Below are positions 40,722 to 48,144 of a stretch of 64,000 nt of DNA, piece after piece. The DNA is from Maribacter hydrothermalis. Lineage in GTDB: Bacteria > Bacteroidota > Bacteroidia > Flavobacteriales > Flavobacteriaceae. Where the stretch lies: NCBI RefSeq assembly GCF_001913155.1, contig NZ_CP018760.1, positions 744,001 through 808,000 of the forward strand, read 5' to 3'. The first letter of the stretch is position 1. Every line of letters begins with the position of its first letter. The notes beneath the pieces were generated by a model. The model ran no database searches. It had not been told where the DNA came from and worked only from the letters and a program-made list of their open reading frames with translations. Position numbers and translations under genes: made by a program.

Positions 40722-41303
40722 ATGAAAAAATCATTATTAAGTTTAGCATTCGTTGCTATTTTTGGATTTAATGCAACAGCATCGACGCCTATTGATGGGG
40801 ATAAAAAAGAAATTAAGGCTAGTGAAAGCACCATAACTTGGAAGGGTTATAAAGTTACAGGGTCACACCATGGCTCTATAAATTTAAAATCTGGTCATTT
40901 AGAAATGAACGGTAAAAAATTAACTGGTGGTGAATTTGTCGTTGACATGACTTCAATCACCGTTAATGACCTAGAAGCGGGACAAGGAAAAGAAAAATTA
41001 GAAGGTCACTTGCAGTCTGCGGATTTTTTTGGTATTGAGAGCAACCCTATTTCTAAATTGGTTTTTACATCGGTAAAGCCTATGAATGAAAATTCATATA
41101 CCGTTACTGGAGATTTAACTATTAAAGGAATTACCAAACCGGTTACCTTGGTAGTTTCTATGTTTGAAAACAAAGCAACGGCCACTATTAAAATCGATAG
41201 AACAAAATTTGATATTAAATATGGTTCTGGAAGCTTCTTTGACAATTTAGGCGATAAAGCTATTTATGATGATTTTGATTTGGTAGTAGATTTAGCACTA
41301 TAA
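40722..41303 (+). CDS. YceI family periplasmic protein
   Basis: This 193-residue exported lipocalin-like protein has signal peptide MKKSLLSLAFVAIFGFNATAS. The YceI domain shows STITWKGYKVTGSHHGSINLKSGHLEM, GGEFVVDMTSI, LEGHLQSADFFGIESNP, VTGDLTIKGITKPVTL and RTKFDIKYGSGSFF. The family binds isoprenoid-like lipids. The position behind marR suggests stress or lipid-responsive control. It ends at a clear terminator before the trp promoter. Confidence 0.93.
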   Translation: MKKSLLSLAFVAIFGFNATASTPIDGDKKEIKASESTITWKGYKVTGSHHGSINLKSGHLEMNGKKLTGGEFVVDMTSITVNDLEAGQGKEKLEGHLQSADFFGIESNPISKLVFTSVKPMNENSYTVTGDLTIKGITKPVTLVVSMFENKATATIKIDRTKFDIKYGSGSFFDNLGDKAIYDDFDLVVDLAL

Positions 41304-41393: not shown

Positions 41394-41424
41394 TTTGATA
41401 GTTTAAATTTCCTTTTTATATTTG
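41394..41424 (+). promoter_or_regulatory. Promoter of the trp operon
   Basis: TTTG (41394-41397), 19 bases, then TATATTTG (41417-41424) is a full match to the Bacteroidota promoter consensus. The start should lie around 41430, only a few bases before the leader-peptide ATG. Confidence 0.85.
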
Positions 41425-41431
41425 AAGCTCA

Positions 41432-41488
41432 ATGAAAAATTTAATCGCAAAAACTTGGTGGTGGAACAACTTACGAAAAACATCGTGA
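41432..41488 (+). CDS. trpL: trp operon leader peptide with three consecutive Trp codons
   Basis: An 18-codon ORF encodes MKNLIAKTWWWNNLRKTS. Codons 9-11 are TGG TGG TGG (41456-41464). It starts just after a strong promoter and is followed by a terminator hairpin 29 bases after its TGA stop, before trpE. This is the classic layout of ribosome-mediated attenuation: stalling at the Trp codons when charged tRNA-Trp is scarce would free 41485-41495 to pair with the terminator's 5' arm. Identification rests on context and composition; the peptide itself is too short for homology. Confidence 0.9.
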   Translation: MKNLIAKTWWWNNLRKTS

Positions 41489-41517
41489 GCAAAGCATCAT
41501 TGTAGTAAAACTATATA

Positions 41518-41553
41518 AAGGCTTGTCATCACGACAAGCCTTCTTTATTTTTT
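41518..41553 (+). terminator. trp attenuator terminator
   Basis: AAGGCTTGTC-ATCAC-GACAAGCCTT is a perfect 10-bp stem followed by TTCTTTATTTTTT, ending 10 bases before the trpE ATG. A competing antiterminator is possible: GTGA (41485-41488) with TCAC (41529-41532) and AAGC (41492-41495) with GCTT (41521-41524). Confidence 0.9.
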
Positions 41554-41563
41554 AAAAGTAGCT

Positions 41564-42961
41564 ATGACCTATCCATTTAAAACATATCATAAAAAAATTC
41601 TTGCCGATACCATAACCCCGGTAAGTGTTTATTTGAAAATAAGAGATCGTTTTCCTAATAGTATTTTATTAGAAAGTAGCGATTATCACGCTAACGATAA
41701 CAGCTTCTCCTATATATGTTGCAATCCCATTGCCTCTATTAAGGCTGAAAACGAAATTATTATAAAACAATTTCCAGATGGCGTTACCGAAGAAATTCAA
41801 ATTACTCCAAAAACAGATGTTGTAGCTATTATAGATGCTTTCAGTAAAACCTTTAAGGCAGATACGAATGATTATAAATTCATTAACAACGGGTTGTTCG
41901 GCTATATGGCTTACGACGCCGTTCGTTATTTTGAAGATGTTGATCTATCTGTTAAGGATGACTCTATTCATATTCCAGATATTTACTATGCCGTGTATCA
42001 AAATATCATAGCCATAAATCACTTTAAGAATGAGGCCTACCTTTTTGCACATTGTCATGAAACAGAAAATAACATTCCGGAGTTAGAACAACTTTTAAAT
42101 ATTAGAAATTTTGCCACCTATAATTTTAAAATAGAAGGTGAAAGACAATCTAATTTAGAAGATGAAGAATATAGAGCGCACGTTGCTTTAGCTAAAAAGC
42201 ATTGTCAACGTGGCGATGTATTTCAGCTAGTTTTAAGCCGTCGCTTTTCTCAAGGTTTTAAAGGTGATGAGTTTAATGTGTATAGAGCTTTACGTTCTGT
42301 AAATCCATCTCCATATTTATTCTATTTCGATTATGGCGATTTTAAGATTTTTGGTAGTTCTCCAGAAGCACAACTGATCGTTAGCGAAGGTAAGGCTGAA
42401 ATTCACCCTATTGCCGGTACGTTCAAAAGAACCGGAAACGATGAACAAGATGCGCAACTTGCCAAAGAATTAAAGACCGACGATAAGGAAAACAGTGAGC
42501 ACGTAATGTTAGTAGATCTTGCCCGTAACGACCTTAGTAGAAATGGTAATGTGGTCAAAGTTGAAAACTATAGAGAAGTACAATTTTTCTCTCATGTAAT
42601 TCACCTCGTATCTAAGGTTACCGGAATGAAAAAAAGTGATATACCTACCATGAAAGTGGTAGCTGATACTTTTCCTGCCGGTACATTAAGTGGCGCGCCT
42701 AAACATATGGCAATGCAGCTTATTGAAAAATATGAAAAAACGAGTCGCGGATATTACGGTGGTGCCATCGGGTTCATGGATTTCTCAGGAAATTTTAACC
42801 ATGCTATCATGATCAGAACTTTTTTAAGTAAAAATCATAAACTACATTATCAGGCTGGCGCCGGATTGGTCGCCGCATCAAACCCTGAAAGCGAACTACA
42901 AGAAACATATAACAAACTAGGCGCTTTGACCAAGGCTTTGGAAATAGCTGAAGACATATAA
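41564..42961 (+). CDS. trpE: Anthranilate synthase component I
   Basis: TrpE converts chorismate plus ammonia to anthranilate, the first step of tryptophan synthesis. The 465-residue protein has the N-terminal feedback site LLESSDYH, where LLES binds Trp in known enzymes. The chorismate-binding domain shows RRFSQGF, NPSPYLFYFDYGDFKIFGSSPE, PIAGTFKR, ENSEHVMLVDLARND, FPAGTLSGAPKHMAMQLI and QAGAGLVAASNPESE. It partners with TrpG encoded next. It is preceded by the attenuator and followed by a GC-rich palindrome starting 3 bases after its stop. Confidence 0.97.
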   Translation: MTYPFKTYHKKILADTITPVSVYLKIRDRFPNSILLESSDYHANDNSFSYICCNPIASIKAENEIIIKQFPDGVTEEIQITPKTDVVAIIDAFSKTFKADTNDYKFINNGLFGYMAYDAVRYFEDVDLSVKDDSIHIPDIYYAVYQNIIAINHFKNEAYLFAHCHETENNIPELEQLLNIRNFATYNFKIEGERQSNLEDEEYRAHVALAKKHCQRGDVFQLVLSRRFSQGFKGDEFNVYRALRSVNPSPYLFYFDYGDFKIFGSSPEAQLIVSEGKAEIHPIAGTFKRTGNDEQDAQLAKELKTDDKENSEHVMLVDLARNDLSRNGNVVKVENYREVQFFSHVIHLVSKVTGMKKSDIPTMKVVADTFPAGTLSGAPKHMAMQLIEKYEKTSRGYYGGAIGFMDFSGNFNHAIMIRTFLSKNHKLHYQAGAGLVAASNPESELQETYNKLGALTKALEIAEDI

Positions 42962-43006: not shown

Positions 43007-43651
43007 ATGAGTAAAAATATAAAAATTAAAGAGCAACAAAATTCCTCCCCTTTGGGGAGGTTAGGTGGAGCTACCGTTTTAGTTATAGATAATTACGATA
43101 GTTTCACTTATAATCTAGTGCATTATTTAGAGGAATTAGGTTGTGAGGTTATTGTAAAACGTAATGACCAACTTACGCTAGAAGAGGTTGATGCTTTCGA
43201 TAAAATTGTACTTTCTCCAGGTCCTGGTATTCCTGATGAAGCGGGATTATTGAAACAAATCATCGAAAAATACGCACCTACCAAAAGTGTATTCGGTGTA
43301 TGTTTAGGGCAACAGGCTATTGCCGAAGTTTTTGGTGGCTCGCTAATTAACTTAGATGAAGTGTACCACGGTATTGCAACTAAAATAAAAATTACAAAAG
43401 AGGATGTTATTTTTGAAGGATTACCTAAAGAAATTGAAGTAGGCAGATACCATTCTTGGGTAGTGAATCCTGATTTACCAGAAGTTTTAGAAGCTACTTC
43501 TTTAGATGAAAACGGACAAATTATGTCGCTTCGTCATAAAACTTACGATGTTCGAGCAGTACAATTTCACCCAGAATCAGTGCTTACTCCACAAGGAAAA
43601 AAGATGCTAGAGAATTGGTTACGCCCCCTAGCCCCCAAAGGGGGAAACTAA
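43007..43651 (+). CDS. trpG: Anthranilate synthase component II (glutamine amidotransferase) with repeat-encoded ends
   Basis: TrpG supplies ammonia from glutamine to TrpE. The 214-residue class I amidotransferase has LVIDNYDSFTYNLVHYLEELG, LSPGPGIPDEAG, the nucleophile Cys99 in GVCLGQQ, and the His188/Glu190 pair in FHPES. The protein normally begins just before ILVIDNYDSF; here about 22 extra residues precede it, and residues SSPLGRLGG are encoded by a GC-rich palindromic repeat. The last residues, PLAPKGGN, come from a second such repeat. No in-frame ATG exists after the first repeat, so the tail is likely translated. The core is intact, and activity is expected. Confidence 0.95.
   Translation: MSKNIKIKEQQNSSPLGRLGGATVLVIDNYDSFTYNLVHYLEELGCEVIVKRNDQLTLEEVDAFDKIVLSPGPGIPDEAGLLKQIIEKYAPTKSVFGVCLGQQAIAEVFGGSLINLDEVYHGIATKIKITKEDVIFEGLPKEIEVGRYHSWVVNPDLPEVLEATSLDENGQIMSLRHKTYDVRAVQFHPESVLTPQGKKMLENWLRPLAPKGGN
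43044..43071 (+). repeat. REP-like palindrome inside the trpG 5' coding end
   Basis: CCTCCCC-TTT-GGGGAGG (43044-43060) followed by TTAGGTGGAGC. It is read in the opposite orientation to the element at 42964, making an inverted pair. It is translated as SSPLGRLGGA at the TrpG N-terminus. Confidence 0.85.
43622..43649 (-). repeat. REP-like palindrome at the trpG 3' coding end
   Basis: Read on the minus strand it is CCCCCTTTGGGGGCTAGGGGGC, the same family pattern. It encodes the last residues (RPLAPKGGN) of TrpG and runs into its stop codon. Confidence 0.8.
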
Positions 43652-43702: not shown

Positions 43703-43731
43703 CCTCCCCTTTGAGGAGGTTAGGTGGGGCC
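43703..43731 (+). repeat. REP-like palindrome directly before trpD
   Basis: CCTCCCCTTTGAGGAGG then TTAGGTGGGGCC, ending 2 bases before the trpD ATG. It forms an inverted pair with the element at 43622. It incidentally provides an AGGAGGT sequence 13 bases before the trpD start. Confidence 0.85.
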
Positions 43732-43732
43732 T

Positions 43733-44728
43733 ATGAAAGAGACATTAAATAAACTTATAAATCACGAAATACTTTCCAAAGAAGATGCAAAACGCATTTT
43801 GGTAAATATTGCAAAAGGTGATTACAATACAAGTCAGATTGCGGCATTTTTAACCGTTTATATGATGCGTAGTATTACTATTGAAGAACTTGAAGGATTT
43901 AGAGATGCCCTGCTGGATTTGTGTTTAGCAGTAGATTTATCAGCTTATAACCCTATTGATCTTTGCGGTACTGGTGGTGATGGCAAAGATACATTCAATA
44001 TTTCTACCCTAGCTTCTTTTGTTACCGCTGGTGCGGGAGTAAAAGTTACAAAACATGGTAACTACGGAGTATCTTCTAAATGTGGTAGTAGCAATGTCAT
44101 GGAATTTCTAGGGATAAAGTTCAGTAACGACGCTGGCTTCCTAGAAAAATGTATTGATGAAGCAGGTATTTGTGTTTTACACGCTCCCCTATTTCACCCT
44201 GCTATGAAAAATGTGGCTCCTATTCGTAAAGATTTGGCGGTTAAAACTTTCTTTAACATGTTAGGTCCTATGGTGAATCCTGCTTTTCCAAAAAACCAAA
44301 TGGTGGGTGTTTTCAATTTAGAATTAGCTCGTATGTATGGCTATCTTTATCAGAAAACCGATAAGAATTTTACCGTGCTACATGCTTTAGATGGTTATGA
44401 TGAGATTTCTTTAACCGGAAGCACTAAAACTATTTCTAACTACACGGAAAGCATGCTAAAACCATCTGATTTTGGTGTGAAGCAAATTAAACAAAGTGAT
44501 ATTGTTGGTGGAGATTCTATTGATACTTCTGCTCAAATTTTCCTTAATGTTTTACAAGGTAGAGGTACCGAACCACAGAATAATGTGGTTTGTGCTAATG
44601 CAGGTATTGCAATTGCAACAGTAAATAACCTAACACCTCTAGAAGGTTTTGAAAAAGCCAAAGAGTCTTTGTTAGGCGGACACGGATTAGCTGCTTTAAA
44701 GAAAATACAGGAACTAAGTAGAAATTAA
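43733..44728 (+). CDS. trpD: Anthranilate phosphoribosyltransferase
   Basis: TrpD joins anthranilate to phosphoribosyl pyrophosphate. The 331-residue protein has the PRPP-binding CGTGGDGKDTFNIST loop, the KHGNYGVSSKCGSSNVMEFLG anthranilate/PRPP segment and HPAMKNVAPIRKDL. I take the ATG at 43733 (MKETLNKLINHEIL); a GTG at 43724 would add three residues from the repeat. It continues the trp operon after trpG with an 81-base gap largely made of repeat sequence. Confidence 0.96.
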   Translation: MKETLNKLINHEILSKEDAKRILVNIAKGDYNTSQIAAFLTVYMMRSITIEELEGFRDALLDLCLAVDLSAYNPIDLCGTGGDGKDTFNISTLASFVTAGAGVKVTKHGNYGVSSKCGSSNVMEFLGIKFSNDAGFLEKCIDEAGICVLHAPLFHPAMKNVAPIRKDLAVKTFFNMLGPMVNPAFPKNQMVGVFNLELARMYGYLYQKTDKNFTVLHALDGYDEISLTGSTKTISNYTESMLKPSDFGVKQIKQSDIVGGDSIDTSAQIFLNVLQGRGTEPQNNVVCANAGIAIATVNNLTPLEGFEKAKESLLGGHGLAALKKIQELSRN

Positions 44729-44779: not shown

Positions 44780-45565
44780 ATGAATATTCTAGATAAAATA
44801 GTAGCCGATAAACGTAAAGAGGTGGAGTTGAAAAAATCGATTATTCCGGTTTCTCAATATGAGACTTCTGTACTTTTCGAGAGAGAAACGAACTCTTTGG
44901 CTCAGGCACTTAAACTTAGTGATACAGGCATTATAGCTGAATTTAAACGTAGGTCTCCGTCCAAAGAAAGTATTAACCAAAATGCAAATGTTGGGCAGGT
45001 TGCTAAAGGTTATGAGAATGCCGGAGTTTGTGGTATGAGTGTACTTACCGATATTAAATATTTTGGCGGGTCAATTGAAGATTTAGTTTTAGCACGTGCA
45101 TCGGTAAAACTTCCGTTGCTACGTAAAGAGTTTATCATTAGTGAATATCAAATAATAGAGGCTAAAGCACATGGTGCCGATGTTATTTTGCTCATCGCAG
45201 CAATACTAACAAAGCAAGAAATCAAAACATTTTCTGAATTTGCCAAAAGCCTAGGCTTAGACGTATTGTTAGAGGTACATAATGAAGCTGAACTTCACAA
45301 ATCTATTATGCCAAGTTTAGATATGCTAGGTGTAAACAATAGAAACTTAAAGACTTTTGAGGTTAGTTTAGACACTAGTAAATCTTTATCAAAACTGATT
45401 CCAGATGATTTTGTAAAGGTATCTGAAAGCGGAATAAGTTCTGTTGATGCTATCAAAGAATTAAAGCCTTTTGGATACCAAGGTTTCTTAATCGGAGAGA
45501 ATTTTATGAAGACTGATAACCCTGGTAAAAGTGCTATTGAATTCATTAAAAATTTGAAGAACTAA
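44780..45565 (+). CDS. trpC: Indole-3-glycerol-phosphate synthase
   Basis: TrpC closes the indole ring from CdRP. This 261-residue (beta/alpha)8 protein has the signature IIAEFKRRSPSKESI with the catalytic Lys, LTDIKYFGGS, PLLRKEFIISEYQI, LGVNNRNLKTFEV and VSESGISS. It is a stand-alone enzyme, not fused to TrpF; the two genes overlap by one base (TAATG), showing translational coupling. Confidence 0.97.
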   Translation: MNILDKIVADKRKEVELKKSIIPVSQYETSVLFERETNSLAQALKLSDTGIIAEFKRRSPSKESINQNANVGQVAKGYENAGVCGMSVLTDIKYFGGSIEDLVLARASVKLPLLRKEFIISEYQIIEAKAHGADVILLIAAILTKQEIKTFSEFAKSLGLDVLLEVHNEAELHKSIMPSLDMLGVNNRNLKTFEVSLDTSKSLSKLIPDDFVKVSESGISSVDAIKELKPFGYQGFLIGENFMKTDNPGKSAIEFIKNLKN

Positions 45566-46191
45566 TGAAACTAAAGATTTGTGGAATGAAACTGAATACT
45601 GCTGAAGTTGCACAATTGCGACCAGACTATTTAGGCTTTATTTTCTGGGAACCTTCTTCTCGTTTTTTTGAAGGTGAAATTCCCGAACTTCCACATACGA
45701 TAAATAAAGTCGGAGTTTTTGTTGATGCTGAGCTTGATTATGTTATTGATTTGGTAAGCAAACATCAATTACAAGGCTTACAATTACATGGTCATGAAAC
45801 GCCGGAATACTGCATTAAAATTGCAGCTGAATTAAAGAAATTGAATCAGAAAGTAGATATTATTAAAGTCTTTTCCATAAAAGAAGAATTTGACTTTGAA
45901 GAATTGAAACCTTATGAAAATGTATGCGACTATTTTCTTTTTGATACTAAGGGAAAATTACCTGGTGGTAATGGTTACACCTTTAATTGGCCCGTTTTAA
46001 AAAATTACCCTTCTACCAAACCTTTCTTTTTAAGCGGAGGTATTGGCCTTAACAATCTTGATAAAATTAACGAATTTGCAAAAACACCTGAGTCTAAATA
46101 CTGCTATGCCATTGACGTTAACAGTAAGTTTGAAGTAGAACCAGGTTTAAAAAATATTGAAGAATTACAAAAGTTTAAAGAAGCGCTATGA
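45565..46191 (+). CDS. trpF: Phosphoribosylanthranilate isomerase
   Basis: TrpF performs the Amadori rearrangement PRA to CdRP. The 208-residue TIM barrel begins KLKICGM, with the catalytic Cys in KICGM and the general acid Asp in [19 protein letters not shown], then [11 protein letters not shown] and [17 protein letters not shown], the phosphate-binding end. It overlaps trpC by one base and trpB by four (ATGA). Confidence 0.96.
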
Positions 46192-47372
46192 ATTATAATG
46201 CTGACGAAAAAGGTTACTACGGTGAATTTGGCGGTGCCTTTATACCCGAAATGTTGTACCCAAATGTAGAAGAACTACGACAAAACTATATAAAACTAAT
46301 GTATGAAGATTCTTTTCAGAAAGAATTCAATCAGCTTTTAAAAGACTACGTAGGTCGACCTTCTCCCCTATATTTTGCCAAACGCCTTTCTGAAAAGCAC
46401 GGCTGTAAAATATATCTAAAAAGAGAAGACCTTAACCATACAGGTGCACACAAAGTAAATAACACCATTGGTCAAATTCTAATGGCTCGAAAACTAGGTA
46501 AGACTAGAATTATTGCCGAAACCGGTGCTGGTCAGCATGGTGTGGCTACTGCTACCGTTTGTGCATTAATGGGCATGGAATGTATCGTTTACATGGGTGA
46601 AATTGATATTGCACGTCAAGCTCCGAATGTTGCCCGTATGAAAATGTTAGGTGCTGAAGTACGACCGGCAAAATCTGGTAGTAGAACACTAAAAGATGCT
46701 ACCAATGAAGCCATAAGAGATTGGATCAATAACCCCGTAGACACCCATTACATTATTGGTTCTGCTATTGGTCCGCATCCTTATCCAGATATGGTAACAC
46801 GTTTTCAATCTGTAATTTCCGAAGAAATAAAATGGCAGTTAAAAGAGAAAGAAGGTCGTGAAAATCCTGATTATGTGGTGGCTTGTATTGGTGGCGGTAG
46901 TAATGCCGCTGGTACTTATTATCATTTCTTAGACCAACCTGAAGTTGGTATTATTGCCGTTGAAGCAGCTGGTAAAGGAGTAAATTCCGGTGAGAGTGCC
47001 GCAACATCTGCACTTGGTAAAGTTGGTATTATTCACGGTTGTAAAACCATGTTGATGCAAACTTCTGACGGTCAAATTACTGAACCGTACTCCATTTCTG
47101 CTGGTTTAGATTATCCTGGCGTAGGTCCTATGCATTCGCATCTCTACAAATCTGGTCGTGCCGAATTTTATTCTGCTACCGACGATGAAGCTATGGCTGC
47201 AGGTTTAGAACTATCACAACTAGAAGGTATTATACCCGCGATTGAAACAGGACATGCTTTTGCAATTTTTGAGCATAAAAAATTCAAGAAAGATGATATA
47301 GTAGTCATTAGCCTTTCTGGTCGCGGAGATAAAGATTTGAATACATATATTGATTATTTTAAGCTAGCATAG
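46188..47372 (+). CDS. trpB: Tryptophan synthase beta chain
   Basis: TrpB is the PLP enzyme that joins indole to serine. The 394-residue protein has [18 protein letters not shown], the PLP Lys89 in [27 protein letters not shown], the phosphate-binding GGGSNAAG and the TrpA-interacting regions intact. It is the canonical TrpB1 type, paired with trpA 7 bases downstream. Confidence 0.98.
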
Positions 47373-47379
47373 TACTATT

Positions 47380-48144
47380 ATGAGCAATAGAATTATAACA
47401 AGATTACAAGAAGATAAAAAGCTTCTTTCTATATATTTTACAGCTGGATATCCTGCATTGAACGATACCGTTCAAATCATACAAGATTTGGAAAAGAACG
47501 GTGTCGATATGATTGAAATAGGATTACCATTTAGTGACCCTCTTGCTGACGGACCAACAATTCAAGTGAGTTCTACCGCTGCTTTAAAAAATGGAATGAC
47601 GACCGAAATACTTTTTAACCAATTAAAAGATATTCGCAAAACAGTTTCTATTCCATTGATTATCATGGGATATTTCAACCCAATGCTACAATATGGTGTT
47701 GAGTCTTTCTGTAAAAAATGTCAAGAAATTGGTATTGACGGACTCATTTTACCTGATCTTCCGTTAGATGTATACCAGGAAGAGTACGAGGCTATTTTTA
47801 AGAAATACGGGCTCTTGAATGTATTTTTAATTACGCCGCAAACTAGCGATGCACGTATTCGTCAAATTGACGATGCTTCTAATGGATTTATCTATATGGT
47901 GAGTTCCGCTAGTGTAACCGGTTCAAAATCGGGCTTTGGTCAAGAACAAGAAAGTTATTTTGAACGTATAGCCGCAATGAATTTGAACACTCCACAAATA
48001 GTAGGTTTCGGTATCAAAGACGAAGAGACTTTTAAACAGGCAACAAAAACAGCTAAAGGCGCTATAATAGGCTCTGCTTTTATTAAGTATTTAACAAGCG
48101 AAGGAACTACCAAAACTGCTGATTTCATTAAGCAAATACGTTAA
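47380..48144 (+). CDS. trpA: Tryptophan synthase alpha chain
   Basis: TrpA cleaves indole-3-glycerol phosphate and channels indole to TrpB. The 254-residue TIM barrel has FTAGYPALNDT, IEIGLPFSDPLADGPTIQ with the catalytic Glu and Asp, GYFNPMLQYG, GLILPDLPLD, YMVSSASVTGSKSGF and GFGIKDEETF. It is the last biosynthetic gene of the operon. Confidence 0.97.
   Translation: MSNRIITRLQEDKKLLSIYFTAGYPALNDTVQIIQDLEKNGVDMIEIGLPFSDPLADGPTIQVSSTAALKNGMTTEILFNQLKDIRKTVSIPLIIMGYFNPMLQYGVESFCKKCQEIGIDGLILPDLPLDVYQEEYEAIFKKYGLLNVFLITPQTSDARIRQIDDASNGFIYMVSSASVTGSKSGFGQEQESYFERIAAMNLNTPQIVGFGIKDEETFKQATKTAKGAIIGSAFIKYLTSEGTTKTADFIKQIR

Follow-up and report, generated by a model that had tools for sequence, protein, structure and literature searches.

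The region directly upstream of trpE in the analyzed stretch of Maribacter hydrothermalis DNA (64,000 nucleotides, hereafter the window) very probably mediates ribosome-dependent transcription attenuation of the tryptophan operon, as judged from its sequence and modelled folding. It carries a short ORF in which codons for the regulated amino acid stand side by side (TGGTGGTGG), an intrinsic terminator before the first structural gene (41518–41553), and, by sequence and folding model, a mutually exclusive antiterminator whose 5′ arm would be covered by a ribosome at the stop codon and free when the ribosome is stalled. This kind of switch is already known in Bacteroidota, and the window holds a member just under the cut-off of the respective Rfam family; what appears to be new here is the full switch anatomy, a short 5′ UTR predicted from the promoter, and a candidate lysine-coded relative on the same RNA backbone.

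All features described below lie on the forward strand. The promoter comprises the −33 element TTTG (41394–41397) and the −7 element TATATTTG (41417–41424), which follows the Bacteroidota pattern TAnnTTTG; direct reading gives the layout TTTG-N19-TATATTTG, base for base that of the original prediction. The transcription start is predicted at 41429–41431, 1–3 nt 5′ of the ATG, with the box at −12 to −5 as described for Flavobacterium psychrophilum in the accessible text of PMC9723704. The leader ORF trpL, MKNLIAKTWWWNNLRKTS, has 18 codons, from the ATG at 41432 to the TGA at 41486–41488, and its three consecutive TGG codons, the sensor, are codons 9–11 (41456–41464), also as originally read. 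On its 5′ side, the leader adjoins a gene for a YceI-domain protein (PF04264; window positions 40722–41303); similar ORFs, recognized by eye, precede the leader in loci L011, L031, and L077.

Segment 1, CUUACGA (41470–41476), pairs with UCGUGAG (41483–41489) in the 7-bp 1:2 hairpin, which is seen in the fold and has both-side changes at its outer pair; extra 1:2 pairing joins GUGGUG in the Trp codons (41458–41463) to CAUCAU (41495–41500). Segment 2, UCGUGAGCAAAGC (41483–41495), contains the stop codon and has segment 1 or segment 3 as its partner, according to alignments, pairing tests, and the fold. A putative spacer hairpin, UGUAGU/ACUAUA (41501–41515), lies between segments 2 and 3 in the fold and in the alignments of near relatives. 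Segment 3, GCUUGUCAUCACGA (41521–41534), is assigned by pairing counts and the fold, and the 2:3 helix has 6 + 4 bp, TCGTGA (41483–41488) with TCACGA (41529–41534) and AAGC (41492–41495) with GCTT (41521–41524). Both pairings of the antiterminator proposed earlier are present, and the first, given as GTGA (41485–41488) with TCAC (41529–41532), reaches 6 bp. Segment 4, GACAAGCCUU (41533–41542), forms 10 bp with the arm of segment 3; the resulting 3:4 terminator, present in 88 distinct alignment rows, consists of the stem 41518–41527/41533–41542, a 5-nt loop, and a T-rich run (41543–41553) that ends 10 nt 5′ of the trpE ATG (41564), where the 10-bp terminator and T run had been placed before. 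The antiterminator and terminator of the original prediction stand, but segment 1 and its 1:2 hairpin were missing from it. The stretch 41420–41575 folds at −35.5 kcal/mol vs −23.8 ± 3.7 for 200 shuffles, none of which is as low.

A complete trpEGDCFBA operon lies 3′ of the leader, each gene being matched by the NCBIfam model of the same name: trpE, anthranilate synthase component I (41564–42961; TIGR00564, E 8.5e-130, 433.8 bits, below the cut-off of 517.7); trpG (43007–43651; TIGR00566), trpD (43724–44728; TIGR01245), and trpC (44780–45565; NF001377), all above cut-off; trpF (45565–46191; NF002295, E 6.3e-39, below cut-off); and trpB (46188–47372; TIGR00263) and trpA (47380–48144; TIGR00262), again above cut-off. 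A search for TrpR family members, which among 14 control genomes is positive in those of E. coli and B. subtilis, finds none in the window's genome (G000), and attenuation may therefore be the main control of the operon. Rfam matches at gathering scores in the window are five tRNAs, with no T-box or riboswitch. In some relatives, mostly Muricauda/Flagellimonas-like genomes, a small GIY-YIG nuclease ORF is inserted between attenuator and trpE (confirmed by PF01541 in L011, 1158–1433, and L031, 1177–1458); similar ORFs are seen in L036, L038, L040, L045, L048, and L077.

In the proposed mechanism, transcription would begin a few bases 5′ of the leader ATG, and ribosomes would initiate on a nearly leaderless mRNA. 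With charged tRNA-Trp scarce, the ribosome would stall on the three TGG codons, covering segment 1; segment 2 would then pair with the emerging segment 3, forming the antiterminator, and the polymerase would continue into trpE. With tryptophan plentiful, the ribosome would reach the stop codon and cover segment 2, segments 3 and 4 would pair, and transcription would end 10 bases before trpE. With no ribosome, 1:2 pairing would take place, and the terminator would form too. We infer the transcription start, the ribosome footprint, and the tryptophan response of this switch.

Folding of a transcript stopped at 41535, with an assumed ribosome footprint of −14 to +15 of the P-site, gives the 2:3 UCGUGA helix a probability of 0.80–0.97 with a ribosome on any Trp codon; the value drops to 0.14 if no ribosome is present and to 0.00 if one stands at the stop codon. 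Under this footprint, the predicted geometry of stalling and stopping works. Without a ribosome, the same transcript forms the 1:2 hairpin with a probability of 0.84, and the AAGC–GCUU part of 2:3 has a probability of 0.89 even then. The full leader at equilibrium has the terminator in every ribosome state (probability 0.97); hence, the switch must be kinetic, decided while segment 4 is made. Other attenuators, too, decide while the distal segment of the terminator is being made.

For the comparison upstream of trpE in relatives that the original prediction had suggested, two sets of loci were collected: the best 80 of 581 candidates from named genomes, and, from the same family, where 298 of 299 genomes gave a match, 30 loci taken automatically and 60 that were chosen. 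The nearest named trpE relatives are Maribacter. Every fetched locus whose upstream DNA could be read, 169 in all, has the leader; this sample comes from the upper part of the list and so favors trpE proteins sharing at least about 71% identity with that of the window. These loci give 155 distinct leaders, some genomes having been fetched twice; locus L076 is excluded, as its contig begins inside trpE. The alignments are A1 (56 of 89 distinct leaders), A2 (92 rows, 88 distinct), and A3 (31). In a less biased check, 47 of the 53 Flavobacteriaceae rows listed match at E 1.1e-5 or better, most of them not read singly; the other six of the 53 have no credible leader match, G853 having the terminator alone and G544, G181, G042, G867, and G010 nothing.

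A −33 word (TTTG, TTGG, ATTG, or TTGT), of a kind also frequent by chance, lies 18–21 nt 5′ of the −7 box in 142 of the 155 distinct leaders, and the final base of the box is G in 151 and A (TAnnTTTA) in 4. An in-frame ATG 5′ of the −7 box in L012, L028, L035, L041, L047, and L064 opens a longer ORF (MISIF... or MIYIF...) and, being located in the promoter, is a trap for gene annotation. The Trp codons are invariant in the 56 rows of A1. Relatives with the terminator and without the Trp run had been named beforehand as the counter-case; three consecutive TGG codons are found in 154 of the 155 distinct leaders, the exception being L145 with TGGTGGCAT. The N-terminal residues of the peptide are variable, while the Trp run and the RNA segments are conserved, a pattern that argues against the leader peptide or the terminated leader RNA acting in trans, with cis attenuation secondary. 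Such action has a precedent in peTrpL/rnTrpL of Sinorhizobium (S.) meliloti, where rnTrpL begins at the trpL ATG and has trans roles, as reported in the accessible portion of PMC7298713. It is compatible with attenuation in cis; we regard a mainly trans-acting leader as extremely improbable.

The three pairings were counted with predefined structures on A2; RNAalifold on A1 finds the terminator as the sole structure. In the 88 distinct rows of A2, the 3:4 helix is paired in 99.9% of cells over 10 pairs, 4 of them changed on both sides. Taken together, 1:2 and 3:4 have 6 pairs changed on both sides vs 2.1 in shuffles (0 of 500 as high); compensatory changes are seen in both helices. The 1:2 hairpin as drawn pairs just 69% of the A2 cells, and a control slid by +3 comes close to it in both-side-changed cells (37 vs 40) and exceeds it in pair types (18 vs 16), with about half the covariation score. 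The 2:3 helix pairs 81.7% of cells vs 25–48% in slid versions, and has 7 cells changed on both sides vs 2.1 in shuffles (1 of 500 as high). Its core is nearly invariant within the family, the covariation score being reached by 15 and the both-side pairs by 21 of 500 shuffles.

The segment-2 word TCGTGA is exact in 144 of the 155 distinct leaders. In 128 of the 155 the stop codon is the TGA of this word, and in 27 it stands elsewhere, 3–14 nt upstream in 13 and 4–5 nt downstream in 14, the latter reading TCGTGA in another frame. Of these displaced-stop leaders, 25 keep TCGTGA intact, the others having TAGTGA (L154) and TTGTGA (L168). Mere conservation of a stop codon is thereby rejected as the cause, and the word is under selection as RNA, wherever the stop codon lies. 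In L028, the terminator loop reads TCGCGA instead of TCACGA, with the TCGTGA pairing preserved via U-G.

The 2:3 pairing was also compared across families, in 42 leaders (15 from the window's family and 27 from others, including 3 of the lysine type described below), against shuffled segments 2. The mean z of the duplex is −2.6, with values below −2 in 32 leaders and below −1 in 41. In other families the sequences differ and the pairing persists, e.g., GGCAACC/GGTTGCC in L203 and ATGTGGC/GCCAC in L210. Foreign segments 2 pair at least as well in 16 of 27 cases for L223, 15 for L247, and 12 for L234, and within the range of 9–16 of 27 for these three together with L078, L117, L154, L168, and L169; no foreign segment 2 pairs as well for 7 rows. 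In this comparison, the family labels of L207 and L214 make same-family rows count as foreign. Persistence of the antiterminator across families, the TGG run in all but one of the distinct leaders, and the lack of T-box or riboswitch matches in the window and of a TrpR family member in the genome all speak against a terminator that is constitutive or controlled by a non-ribosome factor (an RNA-binding protein, a riboswitch, or a T-box), with an incidental ORF. A lone terminator would likewise lower trp expression, and equilibrium folding prefers the terminator in all states; nevertheless, we consider this explanation very unlikely and retain ribosome-mediated attenuation.

The −7 box ends 4–9 nt before the start codon in 114 of the 155 distinct leaders and at least 11 nt before it in 41; an A stands immediately 5′ of the start codon in 97 of the 114. 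For F. psychrophilum, the sigma-A box is placed at −12 to −5 in the available text of PMC9723704, and the predicted 5′ UTR is therefore 0–5 nt in the short class and about 1–3 nt in the window. From the promoter position, the window's mRNA is predicted to be near-leaderless, and the few-base 5′ leader suggested originally is backed by the conservation of that position. Near-leaderless mRNAs are a minority in flavobacteria: according to the accessible parts of the two studies, leaderless messages make up 5.5% of the mRNAs mapped in F. psychrophilum (PMC9723704), and in F. johnsoniae the leader exceeds 10 nt in 87% of the predicted transcripts (PMC6847099). These proportions, the 41 long-spacing leaders, and the in-frame upstream ATG of several relatives (MISIF...) would favor an ordinary leadered mRNA, with translation starting further upstream or a longer 5′ UTR. 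The upstream ATG, however, falls before or inside the −7 box, and the short spacing and preceding A prevail in the counts above. A leadered mRNA seems rather unlikely; it would touch the near-leaderless start only, not attenuation.

On a trpE tree of 50 rows hand-picked to cover both spacing classes, and thus counting switches rather than frequencies, short and long spacing change 7 times, 5 of these forced by well-supported branches, which points to repeated changes between the two. In the long class, the stretch from the predicted start to the start codon is 61% A (a raw share, with no background for comparison); such a UTR would be in keeping with the A-rich, Kozak-like start of translation reported in F. 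johnsoniae.

Attenuators in Bacteroidetes were reportedly already listed in a 2004 survey by Vitreschak and colleagues. The original prediction called trp attenuation classical in proteobacteria; it is not exclusive to them: Bacteroidota have a named Rfam family, Bacteroid-trp (RF01692), in Table 1 of Weinberg et al. (2010; PMC2864571), the part of that paper used here. The window scores 46.5 bits, below the gathering score of 49 (E 9.5e-05 for the stretch), and 13 of 20 chosen relatives pass it, including the near relative L001 at 50.9; by these scores, the window leader is homologous to RF01692, narrowly missing the cut-off. Both come from the same phylum, and the alignment of the window spans positions 1–131 of the 131 in the model. 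Rfam describes the family as a 'Bacteroidete tryptophan peptide leader RNA', and a Trp-codon leader ORF directly before trp biosynthesis genes is common to the family, the window, and the 169 loci. The model differs in stopping in the 5′ arm of the terminator, without terminator or antiterminator, and its consensus is A/U-rich before the AUG, where the window has the promoter box.

The E. coli trp leader works by Trp codons, alternative pairings, and a terminator before trpE. The window shares with it (RF00513, Trp_leader) the Trp codons, the alternative 1:2/2:3/3:4 pairings, and the terminator before trpE, but has a predicted near-absent 5′ UTR, no TrpR family member, and the stop codon inside segment 2; the stretch gives no RF00513 match up to E 10. 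In S. meliloti, translation of a leaderless trpL is on record, and the gene is part of an attenuator before trpE(G), according to the accessible parts of PMC7298713 and PMC10117765. This leaderless trpL/rnTrpL resembles the predicted near-leaderless trp leader mRNA of the window, but belongs to another phylum, and its ATG start and translation are experimental there and predicted here. Closer to the window, in the same bacterial family and with the same proposed mechanism, a Bacteroid-Trp element of F. psychrophilum is discussed as trp control (PMC6414381), and clues for leader-peptide attenuation before amino-acid operons are described (PMC9723704); in the text available from these two sources, the element is named without its anatomy.

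A covariance model of the leader, R1, was run over 296 genomes of the phylum, and hits were then read. Trp leaders occur in several other families before trpE (L205, L207–L210, L213, L215, and L219, with trpE assigned by BLAST; more by eye), before trpD-trpF (L203, L204, L206, and L214), and before trpB (L211, L222, L224, L225, and L234), the latter genes being named by eye from their first residues. Among 20 weak-hit regions read, L216, L217, L218, and L220 were rejected as resembling chance terminators; of another 20, a Trp leader is found in L262 only, and 18 further ones yield no Trp or Lys leader. As weak hits are often false, the tallies of 53/296, 88/148, and 68/246 overstate true leaders; strong matches beyond the fetched loci were mostly not read singly. 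The backbone-only model R2, run over the order for other re-aimed leaders, gives only the Trp and Lys types among the hits read.

The Lys type is found in eight genomes of three genera (L200, L241, L243, L244, L246, L248, L249, and L273) of another Flavobacteriales family, which we infer to be Chryseobacterium-like. Its peptide, MILSNLKK[AGS]KKQ[NY]LR[RP][TM]S, has Lys codons at and around the Trp positions; shared with the Trp type are the 18-codon frame, UCGUGAG as segment 2, the CUUGUCAUCACGACAAG hairpin, and, nearly unchanged, the C-terminus ([N/Y]LR-x-[T/M]-S-stop). L241 (Lys) and L148 (Trp) have the 22-base AACTTACGTCGAACGTCGTGAG in common without a single difference. It lies directly 5′ of an aspartokinase gene, for which the best NCBIfam model is lysine-sensitive aspartokinase 3 (386.7 bits in L243, below the cut-off of 455). 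Among 60 genomes of the Lys-type family, 7 have this aspartokinase (E 1e-60), 4 with the leader and 3 without. The Lys type is absent from the 260 nt before six more distant aspartokinase homologues (L274–L279) and before the three aspartokinase genes of the window's genome. The Lys codons are interrupted, not one run, and Lys is common in AT-rich genomes. We consider it evenly balanced whether, as these sequences suggest, Flavobacteriales share one attenuator chassis re-aimed by a swap of sensor codons, the Lys type being a lysine-codon attenuator.

Lysine riboswitches do this work in some other bacteria. Shewanella lysC, e.g., is listed under the lysine riboswitch in the accessible text of PMC2659441, and Rfam gives no match up to E 1 at the Lys leaders L200, L241, L246, and L248. 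The literature searched (titles and abstract starts, outside subscription papers) contains no Lys-coded leader of this sort. A similar case is SEP5 of S. meliloti (PMC10117765, in the part available): this candidate leader peptide precedes a gene of the aspartate pathway, too, and contains three Lys codons, but these are mixed with six Thr codons, and the species belongs to another phylum. A Thr-rich small ORF (MDCYKTDITFNFTSATITYGTATACFTLWG in L307, about 472–564; G000:C1 near 552171), seen also in L310, lies ~70 nt 5′ of an aspartokinase-type gene of 821 residues and is possibly another leader peptide; a script finds no simple terminator in the L307/L310 region.

The analysis supplies the full anatomy of a Bacteroidota trp attenuator, the Rfam model ending short of the terminator. 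To our knowledge, Bacteroidota mRNAs lack Shine-Dalgarno sequences, and a predicted near-leaderless start on a regulatory peptide, conserved and repeatedly changed, therefore makes leaderless initiation testable there. The Lys type, if true, would be a naturally occurring example of a switch that has exchanged its amino acid for a different one and, if working, would show that an amino-acid sensor can be re-aimed by codon exchange.
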